A DNA stretch of 64,000 bases from Ferrimonas balearica DSM 9799 (GTDB taxonomy: Bacteria; Pseudomonadota; Gammaproteobacteria; Enterobacterales; Shewanellaceae), in the NCBI RefSeq assembly GCF_000148645.1, contig NC_014541.1, positions 62,001 through 126,000 on the forward strand, in the 5' to 3' direction. Position 1 is the stretch's first letter. Each line of letters starts with the position of its first letter. Positions 21,392 through 25,207 of the stretch are shown here, piece after piece. The notes under the pieces were generated by a model that saw nothing but the letters and a program-made list of their open reading frames with translations, ran no database searches and was not told where the DNA came from. The position numbers and the translations under genes are program-made.

Positions 21392-22198
21392 GTGACCGAC
21401 ATCATTAACCGGATTCAGCGGATGCAATGCCCCAGCACGGAAGCGCAGTTTGAGCGCAGCCAATTGATCTTAAACGCGACTGAGTGGTTGATTGAGACTC
21501 AGGGCCTGATCGCGTTCAAAATTTCTGATCTGTCCAACCATGCCGGCATCGCCAACAGCTCCCTCTATAAGCTGTTCGAAAGCAAGGAAGACCTGTTGGT
21601 GTGCTGCTTCCTGCGCAACGCCACCAGCAACCACTTTGCCCCGTTTGAAGCCCAGTATCCGGACCTGACTCCGATCCAGCGGGTGCTGATCCCCATCATG
21701 TTCACCTTTGAAGCCACCCACTTTGCCCCGACCTTCAACCTGGTGCGGCAGGTGGCGGTGAACCCGATGGTGTGGCGCCGGGCCAGCCCGGAGAAGGTGA
21801 AAGCCTTCGAGACCCGCATCAACCTGTTCTGGCGCGCGATTAAGGGATACGTGGTCGAAGCGGTGGAATCCGGCGACCTGGTGGCCACGGAGGAGGAGGT
21901 ACTGGAACTGACTCAGGCGATCACCTTCTACCTGAGTGGGGCGCTGTCGGCGTATCAGAGCCAGCTGATCAACAACACCTATCTGAAAGAGAAGCGCTAC
22001 ACCCTGTTCCGGCAGCTGCAGAAGGTGTTTCTGCCCTATCAGTGGCGGCAGCAGATGGAACTGGCCGATTTTGAGCGCATCGGGATGCGGGTGCATCTCT
22101 ACTACCGCCAGCTGGGCGAAACCTTCAACCGTTGTGAACGTTGCCAGCAAGCCGGACAGTGCGGGGCGGGGACGTCGCCATCCGTGGCGACCGAATAA
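21392..22198 (+). CDS. TetR-family regulator
   Basis: Up to 268 residues. A TetR helix-turn-helix lies at about residues 23-70 (RSQLILNATEWLIETQG, LSNHAGIANSSLYKLFESKEDLLV). The C-terminal tail carries a cysteine group (CERCQQAGQC) unusual for the family that could bind metal or sense redox. The GTG at 21392 and the ATG at 21422 are both possible starts; neither has a strong ribosome site. It is convergent, 3 bases apart, with the cupin gene of the flavoprotein operon, and is a candidate regulator of that operon or of the GPH transporter. Confidence 0.8.
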   Translation: MTDIINRIQRMQCPSTEAQFERSQLILNATEWLIETQGLIAFKISDLSNHAGIANSSLYKLFESKEDLLVCCFLRNATSNHFAPFEAQYPDLTPIQRVLIPIMFTFEATHFAPTFNLVRQVAVNPMVWRRASPEKVKAFETRINLFWRAIKGYVVEAVESGDLVATEEEVLELTQAITFYLSGALSAYQSQLINNTYLKEKRYTLFRQLQKVFLPYQWRQQMELADFERIGMRVHLYYRQLGETFNRCERCQQAGQCGAGTSPSVATE

Positions 22199-22201
22199 CG
22201 C

Positions 22202-22945
22202 TTACTTAAAGCGTGCTTCGTTGGTGCCGTAGGGGCCCAGGCCCATGGCGGCTTTACGCATGATGTCGACGCGGTCGAACGCTTCTTCTGCCACGCGCAG
22301 GTTCTTCACGTCCTTACGCCAGTAGTACTTGAAGCCGTCGAAGTGGGCGTTTTTCGGGTACCAGTACAGCACGCCAAAGCCTTCCTCTTCGGTGATCGGG
22401 GTGTTGTGGATGGTGTTGCCCGGGATGTAGAAGTACATGCCTTTCTCCATCCACTTGTACTCGCCGTCCGCCAGGGTGCGTGCACGGCCACTGACCGCGT
22501 AGTAACACTCAGGCTGACCGTGGAAGTGCGGCTCGTGATCCGATTTGCCCCCGTTGGTGATGCCGATGGTGAGCGGGTAATCGGCCAGCTCTTTCCACAG
22601 GTAGCCTACCGGCGCGTTGTTCAGGTCGCAGCCCTTCACTTCCAGAATGTTGCCGTCGTTGTCCAGGCCCTTACAGAAGCGCTGGTCCTTGGCGATGGAG
22701 TCGTTGGCGGTAATGGTGTTGAAGTCGATCTTGCCGGCTTCCCAGTCGGCGATGTACTGCTCCACCAGCGGGTCACGGCACTGCTCCGGCATGGTGGTCT
22801 GTGGGGAGTAGGGGCTGTAGTCGTACGGGATGGCGGTCGGTTGCTGGTACGGGCGCTGTTCCATCTTGAACGCGTGCTCGCCATGGCCGGCGTAAGCGTT
22901 ACCTGCCAGCAGAGCGGTCAGGATCAGGGCTACGGGTTTCATCAT
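22202..22945 (-). CDS. Periplasmic cupin with DMSP-lyase-type metal motif
   Basis: The 247-residue precursor has a signal peptide (PVALILTALLAGNAYA). Counting from the first of three consecutive ATGs, it has the cupin motif H141-x-H143-x3-E147-x-Y149 and H181 in GMYFYIPGNTIHNTP. From memory this is the pattern of cupin dimethylsulfoniopropionate lyases (DddW: H81, H83, E87, Y89, H121, the same spacing). DddY is the known periplasmic member but is longer (about 400). Four cysteines suggest disulfides. It is the last gene after a flavoprotein and a tetraheme cytochrome, behind an intercistronic hairpin. I infer a lyase whose product feeds the reductase; the substrate is unproven. Confidence 0.65.
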   Translation of the reverse strand: MMKPVALILTALLAGNAYAGHGEHAFKMEQRPYQQPTAIPYDYSPYSPQTTMPEQCRDPLVEQYIADWEAGKIDFNTITANDSIAKDQRFCKGLDNDGNILEVKGCDLNNAPVGYLWKELADYPLTIGITNGGKSDHEPHFHGQPECYYAVSGRARTLADGEYKWMEKGMYFYIPGNTIHNTPITEEEGFGVLYWYPKNAHFDGFKYYWRKDVKNLRVAEEAFDRVDIMRKAAMGLGPYGTNEARFK

Positions 22946-22973
22946 CATCTCTCCGTATTATTTTCGGTATTAC

Positions 22974-23007
22974 TTAAAAAGATTCGGGCCCGTCTAGACG
23001 GGCCCGA
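22974..23007 (-). terminator. Terminator-like hairpin between tetraheme cytochrome and cupin genes
   Basis: A 24-base perfect palindrome (TCGGGCCCGTCT and its complement) is followed on the minus strand by ATCTTTTTAA. It lies just after the cytochrome stop, with only about 25 bases before the cupin start. Cupin expression would therefore depend on read-through or processing. Confidence 0.75.
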
Positions 23008-23015
23008 GGCAGGGC

Positions 23016-23381
23016 TTAACGCTCGTTAAACCAGGTGCGGTGGCACTCAGAGCAAACCGGCGCTTTGGTTTCGTGCTCGGCGTGGCAGGCCAGACAGCTG
23101 GCGCCATTTCCGTAGTGGATGCTCTTGTGCGGGTTGGCTTCTTCCAGTACCAGCTCAGTGGTGATCTCGATGGTGTCGATGGTGCCGTGACACTCGATGC
23201 AGGACTGGTCGTCAACGTACTTCTTGGCGTTGCCGGTGTGGCAGCCGTTACAGCCGTCTTCGTACAGGAAAGCGTGGTTGCTGCGGCCTTCCAGTTTGCC
23301 TTTCATTGCCACCAGCTCACCGGCTTGGGCGCCAGAGGTCAGTGCCAGCGCCAGGCCCAGGCTAATCAACAGTTGTTTCAT
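23016..23381 (-). CDS. Small periplasmic tetraheme cytochrome c, flavocytochrome c3 type
   Basis: The 121-residue precursor has a signal peptide ending at SGAQA and four haem sites: CNGCH, CIECH, CLACH and CSECH. The spacing and the blocks CIECHGT...NPHKSIHYG...CLACHAEHE resemble the N-terminal tetraheme domain of Shewanella fumarate reductase FccA. Here it is a separate protein. The gene starts 12 bases after the flavoprotein stop, so the two very likely form a split flavocytochrome, the cytochrome passing electrons from the quinol-oxidising chain to the flavin. Confidence 0.9.
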   Translation of the reverse strand: MKQLLISLGLALALTSGAQAGELVAMKGKLEGRSNHAFLYEDGCNGCHTGNAKKYVDDQSCIECHGTIDTIEITTELVLEEANPHKSIHYGNGASCLACHAEHETKAPVCSECHRTWFNER

Positions 23382-23392
23382 GGTGGGTCTCC

Positions 23393-24895
23393 TCAGGCGT
23401 CGGCTTTGATGGCTTTGGGTACGATGAAGCCCATGGCCAGACCTTCAAGGCAGGCACAGGAACTCAGACGGGCTTCGCCGTGGGTACCACCGGACACTTC
23501 ACCGGCGGCGTACAGGCCCTTCATCGGCTCGAGGGTCTTGGCGCTCAGCACGCGACCATCGATGTCGGTTTTCAGGCCGCCCATGCAGTAGTGCACTTTC
23601 GGCCAGATGCGGGATACCACGAACGGCGCTTTCAGCTCTTCGGCGGTGTCCATCTTGCGGTCGAAGTCCGGGTCAACGCCCTGCTTCACCTGCTCGTTCC
23701 AGCGGGCAACGGTCTTCTTCAGCTCGGCCACCGGCACGTTGAACTTCTCAGCCATCTCTTCGAGGCTGTCCACTTTCCACGCCATCTCATCACGCAGGGC
23801 ACGGGTAACACGCTCGTCATTGCCGTACTTGTCGTAGTTGATGAACACCAGCGGGTAGGCCGGGGAACCGTCTTCGTAACGGTTGGCCATGATGCGGGTG
23901 GAGCAGTACAGACGGTCAGCACGCTCGTTCATGTAGCGCTTGCCGCTCAGTACGGAGACGGAGATGCCCTGGTGCCAGCCGATGGACAGCAGCGCGTTGG
24001 ACCAGCCAAAGCCGCCTTCGTCCGGAGAGCCCCAGTGGCCGGTCTGGATCATGTTCAGGTGTACCGCCAGAGCACCGTGGCCCATGGCAGACAGCATCGC
24101 TTCACCGGTGGCACCCAGGTGGTTGGTGCCGTCCAGGGTCGGATCCAGAGACGGGTCCACCATGGCGCGCAGCTTCATGTTGCGGGTAAAGCCGCCGGAA
24201 GCCAGGATCACGCCCTTACGGGCTTTGATGCGCAGGGTGTGGCCGGTTTTCTCGTCCGGGAAACGGTAGCCGCGACGAACCACGACACCGGTCACCACGT
24301 CGTTTTCAACCACCAGGTCTTCGATAAAGTGCTGGAGACGGAAATCCACGCCTTCCGCTTTGGCCACTTCGTACAGCTTGGAGGTGATGTCACCACCGGT
24401 GCCGTGCTGGGTGCGCACTGCGCGGGCCTTGTTGTGGCCGCCCACCTGGATGTTGAAGTCCTTTTTGAATTTCACGCCGGACTCAACACACAGGTTGTAG
24501 GAGTCCAGAGCGTGGTTGGCGATTTTGCGCAGCTTGGCTTCGTCACCCATACCACGGGCGGCGATCAGCTGGTCTTTGACCAACTCTTCCGGGCTGTCGT
24601 CGTTGATGCCCTGAGCCAGCTGCACCGGGTTACGCGGTACTGCGAACCAGCCGCCGTTGATGGCGGAGTTGCCGCCGATCACCTGCATCTTTTCCAGTAC
24701 CAGAATGTTGCCCAGGCCTTCACGCTTGGCGTTCAGGGCGCAGGACAGGCCGGCAAAACCGGAACCGATAACCAGCACATCCACTTCTTCGTCCCACTGG
24801 GGGGCGTCTTTAGCGGCATTGGCCGGCATGGAAACGGTCAGCCCGGTGGCAGTCAGGGCGGCGCCGTATTTCAAAAAGGAGCGTCTGCTCGACAT
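23393..24895 (-). CDS. Tat-exported FAD-dependent reductase, fumarate/urocanate/acrylate reductase type
   Basis: The 500-residue protein has a Tat signal (MSSRRSFLKYGAALTATG), an FAD Rossmann start (VDVLVIGSGFAGLSCALNA) and the family C-terminus VHYCMGGLKTD...GLYAAGEVSGGTHGEARLSS. In fumarate reductase FccA the matching block is HHxMGG and a carboxylate-binding arginine in GxxRLGG. Here the second histidine is a tyrosine while the arginine remains, which suggests another enoate rather than fumarate. Split flavoprotein/cytochrome systems are known for methacrylate and acrylate reduction. GGGAG 8 bases upstream supports the start. First gene of the operon with the tetraheme cytochrome and cupin. 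Confidence 0.85.
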   Translation of the reverse strand: MSSRRSFLKYGAALTATGLTVSMPANAAKDAPQWDEEVDVLVIGSGFAGLSCALNAKREGLGNILVLEKMQVIGGNSAINGGWFAVPRNPVQLAQGINDDSPEELVKDQLIAARGMGDEAKLRKIANHALDSYNLCVESGVKFKKDFNIQVGGHNKARAVRTQHGTGGDITSKLYEVAKAEGVDFRLQHFIEDLVVENDVVTGVVVRRGYRFPDEKTGHTLRIKARKGVILASGGFTRNMKLRAMVDPSLDPTLDGTNHLGATGEAMLSAMGHGALAVHLNMIQTGHWGSPDEGGFGWSNALLSIGWHQGISVSVLSGKRYMNERADRLYCSTRIMANRYEDGSPAYPLVFINYDKYGNDERVTRALRDEMAWKVDSLEEMAEKFNVPVAELKKTVARWNEQVKQGVDPDFDRKMDTAEELKAPFVVSRIWPKVHYCMGGLKTDIDGRVLSAKTLEPMKGLYAAGEVSGGTHGEARLSSCACLEGLAMGFIVPKAIKADA

Positions 24896-25207
24896 GGTTC
24901 TCTCCCAAAATCCTCTGTGTTCATCGAGGCTCAGGTTACGCCGGCTGAACCGGCGTTGCCGTGACCGGCCGATGGAGGAAGTTTTCTCCGCAAAAAGGGG
25001 TTTTGAGGGCCATTTTCGGGGGCTGGGAGGGGGCAAAAGTCCGCCGCTTTCGCACCAGATCGCGAATCGATCCAAAGTTGTGAGGCGGATCGCGATAAAG
25101 TTTCTCTCCCGGTCCGGGCCAGCCCGCCTGAGCAACGGGCTGGCGCGCCGGAGCGAAGCTGTTACTATCGAGGCCATGCCCCCCTCACGTGTCATAACGG
25201 ACGCAAA
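24896..25207. promoter_or_regulatory. Divergent promoter region between flavoprotein operon and Sel1 gene
   Basis: It holds two direct copies of GATCGCGA 30 bases apart (25058-25065 and 25088-25095), about three helical turns, which could bind a regulator of the flavoprotein operon. No FNR box was found. No gene is supportable here. Confidence 0.4.

Follow-up and report, generated by a model that had tools for sequence, protein, structure and literature searches.

Candidate periplasmic lyase-reductase module with a DddK-like cupin in Ferrimonas balearica

Gene set at the locus

In this study, we analyzed a stretch of 64,000 nucleotides from Ferrimonas balearica DSM 9799 (hereafter the window; C1:62001-126000 of a single-contig genome of 4,279,159 bases) and therein a set of three genes for a flavoprotein, a small cytochrome c and a cupin, which may form a periplasmic lyase-reductase module. 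The genes are read in this order on the minus strand (from 24895 down to 22202) and are separated by 11 and then 67 bases. In window coordinates, the features of the locus are:

23393..24895, minus strand, putative 2-enoate reductase flavoprotein of the flavocytochrome c family, 500 aa, predicted to be exported by twin-arginine translocation (Tat) (TIGR01813, RRSFLK motif)
23016..23381, minus strand, small tetraheme cytochrome c, predicted to be exported, 121 aa, putative electron donor to the flavoprotein (PF14537)
22202..22948, minus strand, cupin, predicted to be exported, 248 aa, with DddK-like metal site and tyrosines, putative lyase (PF07883, profile, fold)
22984..23007, minus strand, terminator-like hairpin of 10 pairs in the gap between cytochrome and cupin genes (hairpin scan)
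21392..22198, plus strand, TetR-type regulator, convergent to the gene set (open reading frame and Pfam scan)
25079..25094, minus strand, CRP-like site with 2 mismatches of 10, 5′ of the flavoprotein gene (site scan)

The flavoprotein reached 504.6 bits with TIGR01813 (cut-off 285.45); it carries the Tat motif RRSFLK and scored 22.5 bits with Pfam TAT_signal, marginally below the cut-off of 22.7. For the cytochrome, four CxxCH motifs were counted by eye and PF14537 gave 50.1 bits, and the cupin matched PF07883 with 30.4 bits (cut-off 27.2). Export signals of all three proteins were judged by eye. A preliminary description of this DNA had proposed three exported proteins in one operon. The three reading frames are present, while a single operon can be upheld only in part because of the hairpin in the 67-base gap.

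Relationship of the cupin to DMSP lyases

The cupin motif H-x-H-x3-E-x-Y with a distal His, described earlier for the window protein (H141, H143, E147, Y149 and H181), proved invariant in all 36 aligned family members. Y208, W118, Y195 and W196 are also invariant in these 36 sequences, and F203 is found in at least 90% of them. Used alone against the PDB sequences, the window cupin gave weak matches (quercetinase best with 1.4e-4, DddK with 0.003-0.004). The profile of the 36 members placed DddK, a lyase of SAR11 bacteria for the algal osmolyte dimethylsulfoniopropionate (DMSP), first with 9.3e-9 and quercetinase YxaG next with 1.4e-7, and a profile of seven type B cupins (types are defined below) likewise had DddK on top (2.8e-5). 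An AlphaFold2 model of the cupin reached a predicted local distance difference test value (pLDDT) of 86.3 and a predicted template modelling score (pTM) of 0.80. With this model, Foldseek listed DddK at ranks 1-6 of 1679 (2.0e-8 to 4.5e-8, 102 columns), with template modelling scores of 0.36 by query length and 0.64-0.69 by target. Profile and predicted fold thereby agree with the kinship to cupin DMSP lyases proposed before, with a small margin over non-lyase cupins.

For DddK, the metal ligands His56, His58, Glu62 and His96 and the base Tyr64 are described in the accessible parts of PMC12582016 and PMC10686828; according to these, Tyr122 holds the carboxylate and is a possible second base, and Tyr21, Trp26, Phe108, Trp110 and Phe117 surround the sulfoxonium or sulfonium group. 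His56, His58, Glu62, His96, Tyr64 and Tyr122 map onto H141, H143, E147, H181, Y149 and Y208 of the cupin. The distance from Glu to the distal His is 34 in both proteins, and that from this His to the second Tyr is 26 in DddK and 27 in the cupin. Three of the five cage residues have aromatic counterparts: Trp26 in W118, Phe117 in F203, and Trp110 in W196 (by hhalign) or Y195 (by HMMER), depending on the alignment. For Tyr21 and Phe108, the alignments show no conserved aromatic residue at the corresponding place.

The general cupin metal pattern is found in four loci among the 11 Cupin_2 matches in the genome; of these, the window cupin is the single one with a Tyr at Glu+2. The pattern with DddK spacing occurred 195 times in six frames of 246 fetched sequences (3.29 Mb), and by the first 11 letters 192 occurrences belong to the window cupin family and three to DddY; as a control this count is limited, since most loci were fetched for carrying the family and overlapping loci were counted repeatedly.

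The cupin had been regarded as too short for an ordinary DddY. It is indeed no DddY, but its nearest relative is DddK and not a shortened DddY: hhalign of the cupin profile gave 97.0% to the DddK fragment and 1.1% to the C-terminal part of DddY. A short DddY was ruled out, as no DddY model matched and the alignment was limited to the metal motif. In contrast to DddK with its chain of 136-150 aa, the cupin appears to be an exported protein, and its mature form carries about 90 additional residues N-terminal to the matched region. DddK is not known to have a signal peptide or a linked reductase. Sequence profiles and the modelled fold support the assignment of the cupin as most like a DMSP lyase of the DddK type.

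Occurrence together with flavoprotein and cytochrome

When GTDB species contigs were scanned for two peptide patterns, 53 loci were obtained, 50 of them in Ferrimonas, Shewanella or Paraferrimonas. The others were found in Falsirhodobacter sp. alg1 (68%), in a Granulosicoccaceae genome (57%) and in a genome labelled Marinobacter nauticus (90%). The cupin of another F. balearica strain is 90% identical to that of the window. In the locus labelled M. nauticus (L082), the genes are arranged as in F. balearica over 20 kb, and its label may be wrong. Profile matches were rare in the class (2/369 genomes) and in the phylum (3/398 genomes), with the window genome included in both counts. Within the taxonomic family, 64 of 152 genomes were positive at E<=1e-10 with altogether 93 cupin matches, all of which were inspected and assigned to types A-D by the best of four reference cupins.

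To be counted as linked, a cupin gene had to have a tetraheme cytochrome gene and, at most 7 kb to its 5′ side and in equal orientation, a flavoprotein gene. This holds for 86 of the 93 cupins (A 55/60, B 28/28, C 3/3, D 0/2), so that the gene trio expected from the preliminary description recurs across genomes. For three of the five unlinked type A cupins, the contig extends no more than 1.42 kb upstream; of the other two, one is a match of only 160 residues (G369) and one a solitary full cupin in F. senticii. Types A and B lie next to each other in eight stretches (L041-L045, L053, L054 and L060), and 24 genomes hold both. A DUF3299 gene is present near all type B (28/28) and type D (2/2) cupins, and near none of type A (0/60) or type C (0/3). 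The DUF3299 protein near type B cupins (e.g. L041:8127-8627) appears by eye to be exported.

Clades and active site of the flavoproteins

A quick tree was built from two outgroups and 101 distinct flavoproteins with a minimum length of 470 aa (113 before duplicates were removed); shorter sequences were left out. The tool gave a long-branch warning. The tree required 14 label changes for seven groups (minimum 6) compared to 50.7 in shuffles, with none of 200 shuffles as low; judged by these sequences, the flavoprotein clades largely follow the lyase type. The type A clade consists of 48 rows, 47 with a type A cupin and one (L085) labelled as having none, where the cupin had been overlooked by the gene caller and was recovered by the pattern scan. 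In the DddY-linked clade, 21 rows belong to DddY and one is a duplicate that has no lyase of its own. Type B and C flavoproteins adjoin this clade, and those of type B are intermixed with six rows without a called lyase.

In FccA, a proton-donor Arg and a His and Arg around one carboxylate are complemented by H365, T377, E378 and R381, which form the second carboxylate hold and the proton path; the urocanate reductase UrdA has a Tyr at the position of H365. FccA R402, H504 and the last (C-terminal) Arg are retained in all lyase-linked rows, in the window as R328, H435 and R476. H365, T377, E378 and R381 are not retained (G286, S299, N300 and W307 in the window, with the loop alignment unsure). 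The position of H365 is Gly in all lyase-linked rows, and the Tyr of UrdA is absent. By these residues, both a fumarate reductase and a urocanate reductase were ruled out. The suspected split flavocytochrome thus retains the residues for catalysis and for one carboxylate, and those for the second carboxylate of fumarate lack a counterpart. Roles of residues in FccA-type active sites are partly covered in the accessible part of PMC4427408.

Compared to type B, type C, DddY-linked and ergothionase-linked rows, the type A flavoproteins differ at H287, W298, S299, H308, R325, C331 and S478 (47/47) and likewise at N300 (46/47), the loop alignment again being unsure. Since these differences lie near the active-site segment, acrylate as substrate is not assured, and the residues weakly suggest an enoate other than plain acrylate.

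Sister modules and comparison with known systems

The genome encodes four related flavoproteins of at least 40% identity, all of them accompanied by a tetraheme cytochrome; two more have 31-34% identity, and two further matches are weak. One of the four pairs is that of the window, one lies with a true DddY, one with an ergothionase relative and one without a lyase called nearby. The DddY was identified by PDB 5xkx (8.5e-74) and the NCBIfam DddY model (687.8 bits, cut-off 650), and the ergothionase relative, with a signal peptide by eye, by 6s7j (1.7e-86), ahead of histidine ammonia-lyases. The module plan is thereby alike, although ergothionase belongs to the aromatic amino acid lyase family, is unrelated to cupins and has another substrate. 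The ergothionase relative is located with flavoprotein, tetraheme cytochrome and a Tsx-like channel at L074:8145-13064 (C1 about 3537.6-3542.6 kb), possibly a gene set for ergothioneine/thiourocanate respiration. A type C cupin module of one Ferrimonas genome is followed at a short distance by an ergothionase-like gene, which has a flavoprotein and a cytochrome to itself (L047:9402-18118). The orphan pair (L073:9135-11977, C1 about 1729 kb) consists of a type B-like flavoprotein and a cytochrome with a TetR gene and no cupin called nearby. For electron supply, five PF03264 (NapC/NirT-type) matches were found in the genome.

DddY was present in 66 of the 152 family genomes, and in 46 genomes it occurred together with the cupin (odds ratio 8.7, uncorrected for kinship). 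In 20 fetched DddY stretches, a flavoprotein gene adjoined DddY in all 20; a cytochrome gene was called in 18, and in 11 a porin of one family that is common to the cupin modules. The DddY-FccAB sets therefore resemble the window set in combining an exported lyase, a Tat flavoprotein and a tetraheme cytochrome, partly with this porin. They differ in the length of the lyase (414-459 aa as called versus 248 aa for the cupin), in the flavoprotein clade and, in this genome, in the neighboring regulator, which is of LysR type for the DddY set and of TetR type in the window. A further flavoprotein-cytochrome pair is the acrylate reductase ArdAB of Shewanella woodyi (Swoo_0275/0276).

The plan of periplasmic lyase and flavocytochrome is already known, as dddY cases are in print. 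The accessible part of PMC3338564 reports fccA and fccB beside dddY-acuI in Shewanella MR-4 as well as dddY in F. balearica DSM9799. For the Mrd-Mcc system of Geobacter sulfurreducens AM-1, a split periplasmic flavoprotein and tetraheme cytochrome as in the window, the accessible part of PMC4427408 reports reduction of acrylate and methacrylate, not of fumarate, and describes no lyase gene for this system; it also notes cytochrome genes adjoining dddY and proposes lyase-made acrylate as the substrate on which the reductase evolved. Known lyases are listed in the accessible part of PMC13310141. A description of the cupin branch was not found in the literature searched, with most subscription papers outside its coverage.

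Transcription and regulators

The hairpin scan counted one hairpin in the sequence versus 4.3 in shuffles, i.e. below expectation, so that the call of a terminator-like element is based on hairpin strength. For the gap survey, at least eight perfect pairs and a T-rich tail were required. Such hairpins were present in 5 of 40 gaps with the cytochrome directly 5′ of the cupin, namely in the window, L082, L083 (at the identical place) and two type C loci, corresponding to 3/12 for type A, 2/2 for type C and 0/26 for type B. Due to the hairpin, the cupin may be expressed at a different level in F. balearica.

Upstream of the window genes, no FNR site was found within 2 mismatches, as noted in the preliminary description, whereas 25 of the 47 type A upstream sequences contain one (0.235 in shuffles). 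CRP-like sites (at most 2 mismatches) were detected 5′ of 45 of 47 type A flavoproteins versus 0.13 in mononucleotide shuffles; because the upstream sequences are related, these are not 45 independent events. The other groups gave 11/18 for type B (0.17 in shuffles), 6/21 for DddY (0.17) and 0/2 for ergothionase-linked sequences. TetR relatives are encoded within 8 kb of 57/60 type A and 27/28 type B cupins, and a search for their operator found no palindrome common to more than 5 of the 47 type A upstream sequences. TetR-type regulators of several modules (21392-22198 in the window and relatives) have cysteine-containing CxxC tails, perhaps for metal or redox sensing.

Proposed function and alternative explanations

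We propose that the three genes encode a periplasmic module in which the cupin forms a 2-enoate that is reduced by flavoprotein and cytochrome, and give this reading a probability of roughly 0.6. It draws on gene content, residue conservation, predicted fold, linkage and the parallel modules. By sequence, an exported lyase that would feed a dedicated enoate reductase is well supported. H141, H143, E147 and H181 would hold a divalent metal, at which the carboxylate of a small acid would be bound. Y149 would then remove the proton of the alpha-carbon and a leaving group at the beta position would be expelled, probably a cationic (onium) one, resulting in the 2-enoate. In the flavoprotein, the C=C bond would be reduced by hydride from flavin adenine dinucleotide and a proton from R328, with electrons delivered, probably by a CymA-type quinol dehydrogenase, via the tetraheme cytochrome, so that the enoate would serve as terminal acceptor. 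For the earlier idea that the cupin makes an unsaturated acid respired by the other two proteins, this means that linkage and the modules with DddY and the ergothionase relative speak in its favor, while lyase activity, product and electron flow are kept here as predictions.

Several findings weigh against this reading. In the profile search DddK is ahead of quercetinase by only about 4 bits, and by fold phosphoglucose isomerase (4.7e-7) and other cupins follow closely. With PF16867, the cupin DMSP lyase model, the window cupin scored 11.2 bits, below the cut-off of 27; this model is a weak test, as the true DddY of the genome gave only 17 bits and a type B cupin 18.8. No NCBIfam model matched the cupin at E<=1, a search for which the range of Ddd models contained in NCBIfam was unchecked. 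Against DddY, the cupin profile did not align past the metal motif, and full-length hhalign paired only the signal peptides. The hairpin ahead of the cupin gene weakens the single operon and may split it. Type C cupins (45% identity to the window cupin) are closer to type A than those of type B (26-30%), yet the type C flavoprotein groups with type B and DddY; partners were therefore not always exchanged together. Also, cupins of Falsirhodobacter, Granulosicoccaceae, F. senticii and type D have no adjoining reductase, and the cupin can therefore serve without one. For the two cupins from beyond the family, gene calls, limited to about 10 kb around them, include no flavoprotein.

These points bear on what else the cupin might be. 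As Cupin_2 is a very broad family, with quercetinase and phosphoglucose isomerase close behind in the profile search and both of these and KdgF close by fold, and curated lyase models were not reached, the protein could be an isomerase, a hydratase, a sensor or an oxygenase-type enzyme that serves the enoate reductase in another way. We consider this quite unlikely, since both DddK tyrosines are conserved at nearly equal spacing, the Tyr at Glu+2 is unique to the window cupin among the four genomic loci with the metal pattern, and DddY and the ergothionase relative, both kin of eliminating enzymes, adjoin the sister pairs. A narrower form of the proposed module, not exclusive of it, keeps the mechanism with DMSP or dimethylsulfoxonium propionate (DMSOP) as substrate and acrylate as product; the cupin would then be a second periplasmic DMSP lyase besides DddY, perhaps with other affinity or regulation. 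Its nearest relative DddK is a DMSP lyase that also cleaves DMSOP (accessible part of PMC10686828), its cage residues W26, W110 and F117 have aromatic counterparts in the cupin, and the flavoprotein partners of type B and C cupins fall towards the DddY-linked clade in the tree. This option appears doubtful for the window, as a DddY with a separate flavoprotein-cytochrome pair is already encoded in the genome, the type A flavoprotein forms a separate clade with seven distinct positions in 47/47 rows (under the unsure loop alignment), and Tyr21 and Phe108 are unmatched. Finally, the flavoprotein-cytochrome pair could detoxify the enoate instead of conserving energy, in line with the suggestion in the accessible part of PMC4427408 that such reductases evolved to make toxic lyase-made acrylate less toxic. 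The CRP-like sites, the tetraheme partner and the NapC/NirT-type proteins fit respiration, and three loci contain the cupin but, in the part of each genome that was searched, no reductase; detoxification alone seems unlikely.

Beyond the proposed lyase-reductase module of the window, it is conceivable, if tentative, that a general strategy exists in Ferrimonas and Shewanella, by which, outside the cytoplasm, exported lyases that can replace one another (DddY, the ergothionase relative and a DddK-like cupin family with at least three types) convert onium or betaine-type osmolytes into electron acceptors, most of these lyases having a co-inherited flavocytochrome clade. The type A set would then act on an onium compound other than DMSP, and its product would be a substituted enoate for which no respiration is known. 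If true, the cupins would represent a so far uncharacterised family of exported enzymes that resemble DMSP lyases and occur in marine and sediment bacteria, and one module plan would have recruited at least three different lyases. If dimethyl sulfide or a methylamine were the leaving group, this would bear on the release of such gases under anoxia. As most lyases adjoin their own reductase clade, an assay of one enzyme informs about the other, and the substrate question is directly testable.

Cupins outside the modules and neighboring genes

The neighbors of the solitary cupins (Falsirhodobacter, Granulosicoccaceae, F. senticii and type D) were inspected for hints on the substrate and had no gene in common. 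The Falsirhodobacter cupin adjoins an alginate lyase gene (PF08787, 183 bits). In L051, L052 and L134, type D cupins occur with a DUF3299-like gene and without a reductase, and genes for an M24 peptidase, an EutA/arylmalonate decarboxylase-like, an EamA-like and an M20 protein are located nearby. Many modules adjoin an aminotransferase gene (PF01063, read as ilvE-like), which looks like a fixed genomic site because it is still present in L080, where no module was called.

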